Shown: positions 56,139-61,291 of the stretch, piece by piece
How positions within the stretch are numbered: position 1 is the first letter of the stretch
Layout: the number at the start of each line of letters is the position of its first letter
DNA from: Leptolyngbyaceae cyanobacterium T60_A2020_046
GTDB lineage: Bacteria > Cyanobacteriota > Cyanobacteriia > Phormidesmidales > Phormidesmidaceae
Reading direction: 5' to 3'
Length of the DNA stretch: 64,000 nt
Assembly (NCBI GenBank): GCA_015272155.1
Contig: JACYME010000214.1
Span: 1 to 64,000 of the forward strand
Made by a program: the position numbers and the translations under genes
The notes under the pieces: generated by a model
What the model was told of the DNA's origin: nothing
Seen by the model: the letters and a program-made list of their open reading frames with translations, nothing else
Databases searched by the model: none

Positions 56139-56573
56139 TTAGGGCTGAAGCCAACCGGGCAGGCGCAACCATCGGTTCAACGCATTATACAGGTGATCCT
56201 GAAACCTCGGTGTGAGATCCGGAACTCCCTGGCGCTCCCAGTCTGCAAGGAGTCGGCGACCTAGGGGCGTAAGGCGAAAGCTATCGGTCAAGCCTTGGCC
56301 ATCCACTTCCCGGCGCAGCAGGCCCACGGCGAGCAGCCACAGCATAGCATTTTCGGCAGCCAGTTCTGACAGGGGATAGCGGGTGTAGCCGTTGTGGATG
56401 CCCTGGTTATCGGCGAGGGCTTCAATGCTGACGCTTTGATGCTGCAAAACCTGAAAGAGGCGTAGCCGAAAGGGGGAACAGCGCACGGCTCGCTCTGCCC
56501 GGAGATGGGTTTTGCGGGAATAGGCGATCGCGGCGGGCTGAGACTGGGGCGTTGAATTGACCATGCGGATCAC
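56139..56573 (-). CDS. Npun_F0494-type conserved cyanobacterial protein
   Basis: The 144 residues include AERAVRCSPFRLRLFQVLQ, NGYTRYPLSELAAENAMLW, REVDGQGLTDSFRLTPLGR. This matches my recollection of the family called Npun_F0494 in cyanobacterial annotation. The pattern suggests a winged-helix-like helical protein, but no function is established. An internal Met (56564) may be the true start. It lies 89 bp downstream of nothing on its strand and is probably transcribed alone. Confidence 0.75.
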   Translation of the reverse strand: MIRMVNSTPQSQPAAIAYSRKTHLRAERAVRCSPFRLRLFQVLQHQSVSIEALADNQGIHNGYTRYPLSELAAENAMLWLLAVGLLRREVDGQGLTDSFRLTPLGRRLLADWERQGVPDLTPRFQDHLYNALNRWLRLPGWLQP

Positions 56574-56672: not shown

Positions 56673-58319
56673 TCAGGGGAGAAGGCTGAGTTGCTGGATG
56701 TTGGGGTCTTGGGGCTGGCGCGATCGCGCGGTTCGTCTTGGCGGCGGAATATTGACGTGGGCGACAAACCAGGTGCGCAGGTCGCGAGCCTGTTGGGCAT
56801 CGATCTGGGTGAGGTCGAGGGGAGGCGGAAAGAGGGGCGTCTCGGGCTGGGTGGCCCAGGTGATCTCGCTGGTGTCGCGATCGCTGCCGAAGGGCGTCAG
56901 ATCCGCAGGGAGGGTGGCGAGATAGGGCACCACATTCTGGCGCTGGAGGAACCGACCGCGCTGGGCTTCGAGCTGCTGCACACGGCGCTGGCGCGCTTGG
57001 CGATAGTCCAAAATCGGCGGCGGATAGCCTTTGACGCGGGGTGGGGTGCCCAGTTGCTCGGGCGGCAGGTGAGCCAGCTCGGGCACCCAGCGCTTGATGA
57101 AGTCACCCTCTGGGTCGCAGCGATCAACAGCAACTTGGCCGGGGTTGTAAATGCGCGTCCAGGGTTTGTCGAGGCAGTGGGTAACGCCCGCCTGCATGGC
57201 CCATTGGTAATGGTCGATGGGGCAGTCGCCGTCGATCAGGTGGCGCATGAAGTGGAGCGCACCGTAGCGCCAATCCAGGCCCATTAGGTTGCTGAGAAAA
57301 CTGGCATAGATGGCGCGAGATCGAAAGTTCAAGGCTTGCCAGCCGCCTGTAGCTTGGAGGCAGCGGGCGGCGGCATCCACAATGGGAAAGCCGGTGACGC
57401 CCGCTTGCCAAGCGCGATAGTCGGCTTCGTTGAAGTCCCAGCCATCTTGATCAAAAACGGTGTAGAGCGATCGCAGCTCAAGCTGGGGCAAATAGCGGAA
57501 GCGTTGGGTAAAGCCATTGCCCCAGCGCAGGCGGGCAATCAGTTGGTTGTGGCTGCGCTTGCGGCGAAGATCGCCGTTGTGGGGGGTGCGCTGCACCGTT
57601 TGCACACACTCGCGCACGGAAATTGCGCCAAATTTGATGTGAGGGCTGAGGCCCGTCGTGGCTTCGGCGCTGGGGTAGGAGAGTTGCCAATAGTAGCGAT
57701 CGCTCTTTTCGGCGAGAAACTCCGTCAACAGACGACGCGCAGCGGCGGTTCCTGCCGGGGGCAGGGGCTTGCCATCGGCACAGTGGCCGACATCGGCCAG
57801 GGTGGGCAGGGGCTCGCTGGGCACCTCTGGCGGTACGATGACCTGGCCTGGGGTGGGCACTATCGCCGCCGCCATGTCGCGAAACCACCGCAGCCGATAT
57901 TGCGGGTAGGGAATTAGTTCGGACAGGCTGGCGGGGGGCTCAAACCAGCGAATTTTCATCTGTTGCTGGGTGAGGGCTTGGTTGAGGCGTCCGTCGCGCA
58001 CGCGGCCATAGATGCGTTCACAGTCGGTGTGGGCATAGATGCCCTCGGCCTGGGCTTCGCAAATCAACCGGGGCAGCACGTCCACGGGGTCGCCCGATCG
58101 CACAATCAAGCGCCCGCCCACACGGCGCAGGTCGCGATCAAGGGCGGCTAGACAGTCGATCATGAAGGCGACGCGGGCTGGGCCAGTTTCGGGGTGGTGG
58201 AGTAGCGCCCGGTCAAAAATGAAGACTGGGATGACTGCGCCGCGCCGTGCCGCGCGGTACAGGGGCTCATGATCCGTAATTCTAAGGTCTCGCCGAAACC
58301 AGACAATGGTGCGGTGCAT
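56673..58319 (-). CDS. Photolyase/cryptochrome-family FAD protein with atypical electron-transfer region
   Basis: The 548 residues start TIVWFRRDLRITDHEPLYRA, the antenna-domain signature. The FAD domain has TGLSPHIKFGAISVREC, RAWQAGVTGFPIVDAAARCL and FIKRWVPELAHLP. In E. coli photolyase, the flavin-proximal Trp382 lies in NNGGWQWA; here the segment reads PIDHYQWA, so Y371 seems to take that place and the Asn near flavin N5 is absent. Trp equivalents of W306 (YRAWQAG) and W359 (GLDWRYG) remain. It may repair pyrimidine dimers or act as a light sensor. A tail of about 100 residues extends past the core. Confidence 0.88.
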   Translation of the reverse strand: MHRTIVWFRRDLRITDHEPLYRAARRGAVIPVFIFDRALLHHPETGPARVAFMIDCLAALDRDLRRVGGRLIVRSGDPVDVLPRLICEAQAEGIYAHTDCERIYGRVRDGRLNQALTQQQMKIRWFEPPASLSELIPYPQYRLRWFRDMAAAIVPTPGQVIVPPEVPSEPLPTLADVGHCADGKPLPPAGTAAARRLLTEFLAEKSDRYYWQLSYPSAEATTGLSPHIKFGAISVRECVQTVQRTPHNGDLRRKRSHNQLIARLRWGNGFTQRFRYLPQLELRSLYTVFDQDGWDFNEADYRAWQAGVTGFPIVDAAARCLQATGGWQALNFRSRAIYASFLSNLMGLDWRYGALHFMRHLIDGDCPIDHYQWAMQAGVTHCLDKPWTRIYNPGQVAVDRCDPEGDFIKRWVPELAHLPPEQLGTPPRVKGYPPPILDYRQARQRRVQQLEAQRGRFLQRQNVVPYLATLPADLTPFGSDRDTSEITWATQPETPLFPPPLDLTQIDAQQARDLRTWFVAHVNIPPPRRTARSRQPQDPNIQQLSLLP

Positions 58320-58529
58320 ATCGGCCCGGAGCTAGAAAGGTCAAGGCATTGCCGCGATCGCGCCCTGGGCTCACCTTAGCAAATCTTTAAGATTGCTTTC
58401 CAGGATCACCCAAACAATACTTTTGTACTATAGTTAGTGCATACGTCCTATACATTCAGCTCTGAGGTGTCGTGGCGTGTGACGGGAGCTGATGCGGGGC
58501 ATTACTGATTGTCTTGGGGAGGGAAACCC

Positions 58530-59123
58530 ATGAGTCGCCATCACTACACCGCTGAGTACAGCCATCACTATGCCCACCCGCCCATGCCCAATGGCGCAAA
58601 TTCACCGCAAGGGCGTTCCCAGGGGCAGCCCCAGCGCCGTGTTCCCCCTTCGTCCTATGCGGCCTATCCCGACCCCTACCCCGATGTGGAAGGTGGGCGA
58701 TATGCGGTCCCCCATCCCCAAGTGGCTAGACCGCGGCGGCGATCGCGACCGCGGCGGCGGCAAATGTGGCTTGCGGGCAGTGGCGTCGGTATGTTGGCGG
58801 TGGCGGCGTTGGTGGTGAGTCCGCGTCCGGGGGTGGAGAGCCAGCGCGCCACGACGGTGTGTGAACAGCGGGTGCAGAGCACGGCGGTGCTGTCGCGCGA
58901 TCAGCTTTCGCAGTTGTTATCCATTCCAGAGCGATCGTCGCGGGAGGCGGTGCGCGAGGTGATTGACCAGCCCTACTGTTTGCTGGCAAACGTGGCGGTG
59001 CGCGAGGGGACGCCGAGTGAGCGGGAAGCCTACCCCCTGGAGTTTGATCCCCAAACCTGGCTGATTGTGCTCTACGAGGGGGAGGAGTACGTGGGCTATG
59101 ACTTTAGTTTCCGCCGCGATTAG
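58530..59123 (+). CDS. Conserved hypothetical membrane-anchored protein
   Basis: The ATG at 58530 (MSRHHYTAEYSHHYAH) has GGGGAGGG six bases upstream. The 197-residue protein has a His/Pro-rich disordered N-terminus, a basic stretch with many Arg residues (about 70-85), one membrane helix (LAGSGVGMLAVAALVV) and a C-terminal domain of about 95 residues containing LSRDQLSQLLSIPERSSREA and EFDPQTWLIVLYEGEEYVGY. No named family was recognised. The soluble domain is probably periplasmic or lumenal. Confidence 0.75.
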   Translation: MSRHHYTAEYSHHYAHPPMPNGANSPQGRSQGQPQRRVPPSSYAAYPDPYPDVEGGRYAVPHPQVARPRRRSRPRRRQMWLAGSGVGMLAVAALVVSPRPGVESQRATTVCEQRVQSTAVLSRDQLSQLLSIPERSSREAVREVIDQPYCLLANVAVREGTPSEREAYPLEFDPQTWLIVLYEGEEYVGYDFSFRRD

Positions 59124-59683: not shown

Positions 59684-61291
59684 CTATGCTGGCGCATTCA
59701 GCAAGGTGCGGGCGGTGGCGAGGGTGTCGGCTTCGTGGGCGGGTTTGTCGGTGCGCCAGCGGAGAATGCGAGGAAAGCGGACGGAAATCCCGGATTTGTG
59801 GCGGCTGGATGCGGCGATGCCTTCAAAGGCGATCTCAAAAACTTGAATAGGTTCCACCGATCGCACCGGGCCAAATCGTTCAATGGTATGGCGGCGAATC
59901 CACTTATCAAGGGTTTCGATTTCGGCATTATCCAGGCCGGAGTAGGCTTTGGCGAAGGGCACTAGGTCGTCGCCGTCCCAGAGGGCAAAGGTGTAGTCGG
60001 TGAAGAGGTTGGCACGTTTGCCGCTGCCCGCCTGGGCGTAAATCAGTACGGCGTCGAGGGTCATGGGTTCAACCTTGTATTTCCACCAATAGCCGCGCTT
60101 GCGTCCAACGAGGTAGGGACTGTCGATCGCTTTCACCATGAGCCCCTCTGCGCCATGGTGGCGGGCTTGGTCGCGCAGGGCGGTGAGGTGCGCGAAGTCT
60201 TCAAAGGTGAAGGCTTCGGAGCGATCGCGGCGCGAATCGGGATATTCGTCTAGCAGGGTAGTGAGGTGCGATCGGCGATCGCATAGCGGGCGATCGCGCA
60301 GATCCTGCCCCCCGTGCTCCAGCAAATCGTAGGCAATGAAGCGTACCGGGCTTTCTGCCATCACCTTCTTGGTGACACGCTTGCGTCCGAGGCGCTTTTG
60401 CAAATGGTTGAAGCTCAGCGGGCGATCGCCCTGCCAGCACAGAATTTCCCCATCTAGCACATGACCGTTGGGGAAGGTGGCAAACGCCTCCACCAGTTCA
60501 GGGAACTGCTCGGTGATCAAATCCTCGCCCCGCGACCAGATAAACACCTCGTCGGCCCGCTTAATGATTTGAGCGCGAATGCCGTCCCACTTCCACTCAG
60601 CCTGCCACTGGCGCGGGTCTTCTTGGCAAAATTTGTCTTCCTCAAGGGCCGTTGCCAGAAAAAACGGGTAGGGCTGGCTCGGGGCCGTCTCGATCGCCGC
60701 TGTGCTCAACAGCGCCTGATAAAAGGCCGGGGTGGGGTCAAAGTCGCCCATCAGGCGATGGGCCAAGACCGCTTCTGGCAGGCCCGAGGCGGCGGACAGT
60801 CCCTTGATCACCAGCTTGTCTGAGACACCGACCCGAAACGCCCCCGTCAACACCTTATTCAGCACAAAGACCTCATCATCGGCCAGTGCCCGCCACCAGG
60901 AAATCACCAAGTCGCGCCGCTCGTCTTCGGTTCCGGCAGCCTTGATTTGGGGAATGAGCTGCTCCATCCACTGATGCAGGGGAATGTCAGCGCTGGCCTG
61001 GCCCTGGAGCGGCGTGTCGCGCAGGAGCAGCGCAATGACCTCGGCGGAGTCGCCGACGTGGGCGTAGCAGTCTTCAAACAGCCATTCTGGCAGGTGGGAA
61101 ATGCTGAGGTAGACTTCCCGCAGCACGCGCGAGGTGACGAGCCGACGTCGGGTTTTGTTGAGGAGCAGGTACAGCGCCCAGATAGCGTTTTCGGGGGCTT
61201 CTGCTGCAAAGTATTGGCGCAGGGCCTCGACCTTGGCCTTGGTCGAAGGGGTGGCGTCGATCGCGTGAAAAAGCTGGGTAAACCGTTTCAT
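59684..61291 (-). CDS. ATP-dependent DNA ligase (LigB/archaeal-like)
   Basis: The 535-residue protein has an N-terminal DNA-binding domain (about 1-200), then the adenylation domain with active-site K234 in EWKWDGIRAQI, VLDGEILCW, FIAYDLLEHGG, EGLMVKAIDSPY and WWKYKV. The C-terminal OB domain is present (RFPRILRWRTDKPAHEAD). The enzyme seals nicks using ATP, unlike the NAD-dependent LigA that bacteria use for replication. It probably serves repair. The photolyase gene lies 1.4 kb away on the same strand. Confidence 0.93.
   Translation of the reverse strand: MKRFTQLFHAIDATPSTKAKVEALRQYFAAEAPENAIWALYLLLNKTRRRLVTSRVLREVYLSISHLPEWLFEDCYAHVGDSAEVIALLLRDTPLQGQASADIPLHQWMEQLIPQIKAAGTEDERRDLVISWWRALADDEVFVLNKVLTGAFRVGVSDKLVIKGLSAASGLPEAVLAHRLMGDFDPTPAFYQALLSTAAIETAPSQPYPFFLATALEEDKFCQEDPRQWQAEWKWDGIRAQIIKRADEVFIWSRGEDLITEQFPELVEAFATFPNGHVLDGEILCWQGDRPLSFNHLQKRLGRKRVTKKVMAESPVRFIAYDLLEHGGQDLRDRPLCDRRSHLTTLLDEYPDSRRDRSEAFTFEDFAHLTALRDQARHHGAEGLMVKAIDSPYLVGRKRGYWWKYKVEPMTLDAVLIYAQAGSGKRANLFTDYTFALWDGDDLVPFAKAYSGLDNAEIETLDKWIRRHTIERFGPVRSVEPIQVFEIAFEGIAASSRHKSGISVRFPRILRWRTDKPAHEADTLATARTLLNAPA

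Follow-up and report, generated by a model that had tools for sequence, protein, structure and literature searches.

The window analysed here, a stretch of DNA of 64,000 nucleotides, carries on its minus strand an open reading frame for a protein of 548 aa. The first-pass annotation had described its product as photolyase-like, and this was borne out by matches to both the antenna domain (PF00875) and the FAD-binding domain (PF03441) and by the existence of cyanobacterial orthologues, which together with the window protein form a family designated B3. The gene and its flavin domain are located as follows:

56673..58319, minus strand: open reading frame of the photolyase-like protein (548 aa, family B3), with PF00875 at residues 4-124 and PF03441 at residues 261-451
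56967..57539, minus strand: FAD-binding domain, from the domain search

Five NCBIfam families matched the protein, each with a score below its curated cut-off. The class I CPD photolyase models gave 241.3 vs. a cut-off of 884.6 (TIGR03556) and 178.1 vs. 506 (PRK10674), the plant cryptochrome model TIGR02766 gave 153.8 vs. 603.85, and the Cry-DASH model TIGR02765 gave 157.3 vs. 317.05. The Pfam search returned PF00875 and PF03441 only, and there was no match to PF04244, the FeS-BCP domain of the PhrB type. The full-length AlphaFold2 model reached a mean pLDDT of 85.9, and its nearest solved structures were the photolyases of A. nidulans (1owl: Z 33.2, rmsd 2.6 Å over 445 residues), at about 30% identity in the structural search.

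An Npun_F0494 family protein (56139-56573) adjoins the photolyase-like gene. Upstream, the divergently transcribed gene at 58509-59123 showed no Pfam match, and its cluster is the commonest B3 neighbour (31/81 loci). A second DNA-repair gene lies about 1.4 kb from the photolyase-like gene, at 59684-61291, and encodes an ATP-dependent DNA ligase (TIGR04120, 'cisplatin damage response', 597.7 vs. a cut-off of 400). Since the comparison of neighbourhoods revealed no conserved repair operon around the B3 loci, gene context was rejected as functional evidence.

For orthologues of B3, a match above 300 bits was present in 7 of the 292 genomes sampled from the phylum, and the best 80 of 117 relatives in a scan of the genome collection all bore cyanobacterial titles. 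Relatives outside Cyanobacteriota were sampled through plasmid records only, so the spread of the clade described below is a lower bound. Eleven pattern matches in viral contigs included no relative, and the only photolyases in phage records were distant ones, with less than 60% identity. The same genome encodes three further members of the superfamily: one class I CPD photolyase, one protein of the DASH type and one of the FeS-BCP type.

The phylogeny within the photolyase family placed B3 in a little-studied clade with strong support, whose members come from bacteria and haloarchaea. In the careful tree (55 rows, 13 others being left out for speed), B3 and three other groups formed one clade of 40 rows with support 100/100, and the quick tree, which omitted one row (L010), recovered the same clade with support 99; both trees were built without class II photolyases. 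Besides B3, the clade takes in B1, from Nostoc plasmids and their kin, along with a haloarchaeal group and B2, the last composed of picocyanobacteria, Vibrio, Pseudoalteromonas, Rhodobacterales, Deinococcus, Persicobacter and others. In a Halorubrum plasmid (L117:1920-3518), the gene is annotated as two adjacent CDS, one for the antenna part and one for the FAD part, and is split or frame-broken. Four further members of the clade also scored below the cut-off of every NCBIfam family matched. The clade is marked by a substitution at the catalytic glutamate of class I enzymes:

57531..57533, minus strand: Arg263, occupying the position of the catalytic Glu274 and marking the wider clade

Arginine occupies this position in 40/40 clade rows, the other 15 rows of the tree having Glu in 14 and Ser in one; within the family it is found in all 85 rows with a residue there, in place of the Glu used by class I enzymes for CPD repair. 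The class I lesion contacts Asn341 and Met345 are likewise absent from the window family: the N341 position holds Phe in 86/86 family rows and 39/40 clade rows (Met in one B2 row), and the M345 position holds Ala in 86/86 and 40/40, respectively. The R226 position reads Leu. Across the family, E274, N341, M345 and R226 are replaced in every or almost every row, while the W277 and R342 positions are kept. The window protein accordingly shares Arg at E274, Phe at N341 and Ala at M345 with the rest of the clade in which it falls. In PhrSph98, the residues that we equate with E274 and N341 are described as stabilising CPD radicals, and the bifunctional CPD/(6-4) group, considered here by its description alone, is placed as sister to class II (PMC9649867).

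Residues 363-378 of the window protein read DGDCPIDHYQWAMQAG, with the letters D369-H-Y371-Q-W373 as first noted. On aligning this segment with the E. coli enzyme, the first-pass annotation had put Tyr371 at the position of W382, and had deduced that the flavin-proximal tryptophan is lost and the loop is two residues shorter. The residues concerned are:

57207..57209, minus strand: Tyr371, invariant (86/86), first taken as the W382 equivalent and judged here to lie at the G380 position
57201..57203, minus strand: Trp373, probable flavin-proximal Trp (W382 equivalent)
57270..57272, minus strand: Trp350, middle Trp (W359 equivalent), in 86/86 family rows
57438..57440, minus strand: Trp294, distal Trp (W306 equivalent), in 80/85 rows with a residue there

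Tyr371 and Trp373 are both invariant among the 86 family rows, so Tyr371 is not a sequencing error. Two registers are possible, a gapped one (Y371 at W382) and an ungapped one (W373 at W382, D369 at N378), and the choice hinges on a two-residue gap placed before Y371/W373. The gapped register was given by the first MAFFT run and by hhalign of the family against class I; with B3 alone, hhalign chose it against three of four target profiles (class I, the non-class-I set and the joint set), and the local BLOSUM sums were 12.1 for the gapped vs. 5.9 for the ungapped register. The preference of B3 alone for the gap against class I arises because YQWA resembles WQWA. The ungapped register was given by phmmer against the A. 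nidulans photolyase and by MAFFT with more classes. It was also returned by hhalign without any gap in 4/4 comparisons for the haloarchaeal sister group, whose sequence there is INYTQWQ or INYAQWQ, and in 3/4 comparisons for the whole clade. In this register, the loop is not shorter, contrary to what had been proposed. The D369-W373 spacing of four equals those of N378-W382 and Asp396-Trp400. The full-length model shows a helix at residues 369-376 (pLDDT about 72-74).

The aligned ranges of the first structural search span the whole fold and cannot tell the register. For this reason, an AlphaFold fragment of residues 1-378, ending in that helix, was predicted, and the last aligned pair against each solved structure was read. 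Among the 50 rows shown, 29 reach residue 375 or beyond, seven of which are class II with scattered offsets; the other 22 comprise 11 checkable rows, seven compared with background numbering and four unusable ones (2j07; 9lpg and 6lz3, which are one sequence with conflicting registers; and 6lz7). With a fragment pLDDT below 50 over residues 340-378, 10 of the 11 checkable rows matched Trp373 precisely to the proximal Trp, the exception (6k8i) being off by one, and 0 of 11 matched Tyr371 to it. The register also agrees with what we take to be the proximal Trp numbers in 2j4d, 2vtb, 3fy4, 3cvv, 2wb2, 3cvu and 6ptz. The last pair in 1qnf, 1owm and 1owl joins residue 378 to 395, which puts W373 on 390, the first Trp of NNGGWQW in A. 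nidulans, and D369 on N386, an FAD contact of that photolyase (PMC9426592). For 1u3c (AtCRY1), W373 falls on Trp400 and D369 on Asp396 (numbering from PMC8653763); for AtCRY2, 7x0y and 6x24 put them on W397 and D393 (PMC7782693), with 6k8i one residue off; and four CraCRY rows put W373 on W399 (PMC6616342) and D369 on 395.

From the fragment model and the alignments, the ungapped register, with W373 as the proximal Trp, is likely, and the triad W373-W350-W294 is probably intact. The assignment of Y371 to W382 was rejected on the structural register together with the ungapped haloarchaeal alignment, and is probably an alignment slip; correcting the reported loss spares effort that would otherwise be spent on it. 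The structural check of the proximal site does find a Trp, though in a segment of the fragment with pLDDT below 50, and the earlier statement that the outer tryptophans are kept holds. Two members of the class I triad are kept, and the third is kept if the structural register is right. Within the clade, the distal Trp is retained in most rows only in B3 (14/17). In B2, the W382 column of the ungapped register contains no Trp (Cys, Ile, Val, Phe or Met in 17/17 rows, e.g., L122, L119 and L147), and the 379 column contains Trp, Tyr or Phe. These B2 sequences may represent a genuine case in which the proximal Trp has been lost in nature.

The residue facing flavin N5 corresponds to the following position:

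57213..57215, minus strand: Asp369, aligned to the N5-facing Asn378/Asp396 position

The N5-facing Asn had been described as lost, and it is indeed replaced, by Asp in 85 of the 86 family rows (Asn in one); Asp369 falls on the N5-facing Asn in both registers as computed, and its correspondence to the N5-facing Asp of plant cryptochromes is one of alignment. Asn378 is said, in the title of a 2008 study by Xu, to be crucial for repair in E. coli, which counts against repair with Asp369. In plant cryptochromes, Asp396 is a proton donor to the flavin radical and alters the redox potential (PMC8653763). Because the Asn is replaced by Asp, redox tuning resembling that of plant cryptochromes is a fair prediction by analogy; the altered tuning foreseen in the first-pass annotation thus stands by way of Asp, but not by way of a lost Trp.

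Beyond the photolyase fold, the protein carries a C-terminal extension:

56676..56951, minus strand: C-terminal tail past the photolyase fold (residues 457-548), structural matches ending at about 457-460 in most rows
56679..56693, minus strand: QLSLL (residues 543-547), predicted beta-clamp-binding motif by motif consensus, one residue from the C-terminus

Residues 522-548 of the tail are disordered in the model (pLDDT below 50), and the protein ends in QQLSLLP. QL(S/D)LF is found close to the C-terminus of proteins that bind the beta clamp, while PCNA partners carry Qxx[I/L]xxFF (PMC9690074); the pentapeptide of the window protein is of the former type, with Leu instead of Phe in the last position. 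Within the last 15 residues, the motif was found in 71 of 84 B3 C-termini (63 QLxL[FLIMV] and 8 QLxLx[LF]), and the other 13 comprised nine near variants (QLRLL, QMNLF), three frame-broken genes and one partial. The count of 84 drops L003 (same gene as L004), L006 (same as L047), and L095 and L110, both cut by contig ends. In the motif search as a whole, L172 gave no usable ORF and L182 was read separately. The motif occurred in 0/23 class I and DASH paralogues (an earlier set of 25 'class I/others' without two B1 rows found in it), in 1/469 neighbouring ORFs (two more being PIP-like) and in 0/47 E. coli proteins (one PIP-like). Shuffled B3 tails gave a mean of 0.175 per 84 with a maximum of 3, and the script recovers QMSLL at 812 in E. 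coli MutS. When the frame-broken rows (L093, L100, L111) and the partial row (L010, with QLSLSE near its end) were also dropped, Q[LM]x[LF]x was present near the end in 80/80 rows. Among these 80 rows, pairwise identity per column was 0.08-0.27 in the linker and 1.0, 0.97 and 0.95 at the Q, L and L of the motif, and the 20 residues preceding the motif were unconserved and basic, with a mean net charge of +3.9.

The beta-clamp-type motif was also identified in 21/36 B2 rows and 1/3 B1 rows, and the haloarchaeal group had PIP-like ends in 6/7, these being partial matches with a single aromatic. The 15 B2 rows without the motif were seven Prochlorococcus-like sequences, those of Vibrio, Pseudoalteromonas and Persicobacter, two Deinococcus fusions, L120 and L179. 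A motif was also missing from two of the three B1 rows and from one of the seven haloarchaeal rows. The Prochlorococcus-like rows (L169-L171 and L173-L176; family f20, genus g34) read YELKLDF or YELKLDI, with Glu for the key Gln, and their motif appears decayed or altered. That each domain of life has the type of motif expected for its own clamp is the strongest argument that the tail binds the clamp, while the shortness of clamp motifs and their loose consensus count against this reading. Judging from these sequences, the tail of the window protein appears suited to docking on the replication machinery. Among the matches listed in a search of the open-access literature, subscription papers lying outside it, no title concerned photolyase-clamp binding. 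PMC7776575 contains both photolyase and clamp terms; the words clamp, DnaN and replisome are absent from PMC9426592, as are clamp and DnaN from PMC9178010. The novelty of a clamp-tailed photolyase is therefore provisional.

Functional information for the clade comes from Phr1 of marine Synechococcus, whose disruption lowered UV-C survival about 6-fold and gave no UV-B phenotype, and whose expression in E. coli lacking phr and lexA raised UV-C survival, an effect 5-20 times smaller without light (PMC9426592). The published phr1 reverse primer encodes DQQLQLEL-stop, and Phr1 is therefore a motif-carrying B2 member; the phr3 primer gives LYATIRS-stop, which is how a class I protein (L124) ends. 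In two Deinococcus plasmids (L118:1992-4313 and L152:1435-3756), a B2 protein is fused in frame to a C-terminal uracil-DNA glycosylase (PF03167). The UV protection by Phr1 and the glycosylase fusion favour DNA repair over signalling for the clade. Since the Phr1 group has His at N5 and no Trp in the W382 column, its function may not carry over to B3.

We consider it about an even bet (a probability of roughly 0.5) that B3, within its distinct clade of photolyases, is a light-dependent DNA-repair enzyme of non-canonical type tethered to the replication sliding clamp. In such an enzyme, blue light would excite FAD, the excited FAD would take an electron from W373, then W350 and then W294, and Asp369 could protonate flavin N5. 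Docked on the beta clamp by its tail, the enzyme would be brought to replication forks or post-replication gaps and would act there on a UV lesion through pocket chemistry unlike that of class I. We see an equal chance that the whole branch, across bacteria and haloarchaea, is clamp-coupled, through DnaN by QLxL and through PCNA by PIP-type motifs, and performs light-driven repair with a Glu-to-Arg pocket.

A different role, that of a cyanobacterial cryptochrome-like photoreceptor, would turn the Asp at N5 into the basis of a neutral semiquinone signalling state, explain the lost lesion residues and make the tail a signalling extension. The alignment of Asp369 with AtCRY1 Asp396, a proton donor that alters the redox potential, agrees with this role, as does the loss of the catalytic Glu, which is Ser in AtCRY1; yet the tail is conserved as a clamp motif rather than a signalling domain, a relative in the clade gives light-dependent UV protection in E. 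coli, and the plant cryptochrome model scores far below its cut-off, so that we regard a photoreceptor as unlikely. Still less probable is the arrangement first proposed, in which Tyr371 is the proximal donor, in a loop two residues shorter, of a Tyr-Trp-Trp photoreduction comparable to that involving Tyr391 of PhrB. YQWA aligns well with WQWA/S, as the B3 hhalign comparisons and BLOSUM sums reflect, and the natural proximal Tyr391 of PhrB is functional (PMC5887102); against this stand the structural register favouring W373, the placement of D369 and W373 at i and i+4 where the predicted helix begins, and the haloarchaeal group, which bridges the region without a gap. The reading as a conventional CPD or (6-4) photolyase whose pocket has diverged and whose C-terminal motif goes unused appears slightly more doubtful again: the class I fold, with its close match to 1owl, and the kept W277 and R342 positions would suit it, but not the near-universal replacement of E274, N341, M345 and R226, the class I photolyase, DASH protein and FeS-BCP-type gene already present in the genome, or the conservation of the C-terminal motif.

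Photolyases are usually treated as finding lesions on their own. If the clamp-tethered repair reading is true, these enzymes would carry out their light-driven repair at forks or at gaps left after replication, and the conserved tail, by docking on the clamp, would link direct repair by light to replication. Clamp docking could also help explain why cyanobacteria keep several photolyases. The Arg in place of the catalytic Glu raises the separate question of which lesion, if any, the branch repairs.

When compared to known systems, the window protein resembles class I CPD photolyases (E. coli PhrB; A. nidulans 1qnf/1owl) in its two-domain fold, FAD domain, Arg344-Asp372 pair and, probably, Trp triad positions. 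It differs from them in the changes of E274 to Arg, N341 to Phe, M345 to Ala, R226 to Leu and N378 to Asp, in the added C-terminal tail with the clamp motif, and in an overall identity of about 30%. FeS-BCP (6-4) photolyase PhrB would share a Tyr next to FAD only if the register first proposed were right; PF04244, the domain of PhrB, has no match in the window protein, and the genome has a separate FeS-BCP-type gene. Like AtCRY1 and AtCRY2, the protein has an Asp four residues before the probable proximal Trp and has not kept the catalytic Glu; in contrast to plant cryptochromes, it lies far below the NCBIfam cut-off, bears a clamp motif in its tail and is situated elsewhere in the tree. With picocyanobacterial Phr1 (PMC9426592), it shares the E274-to-Arg clade and the clamp-type C-terminal motif, while the Phr1 group, with His at N5 and no Trp in the W382 column of the ungapped register, belongs to another subgroup.
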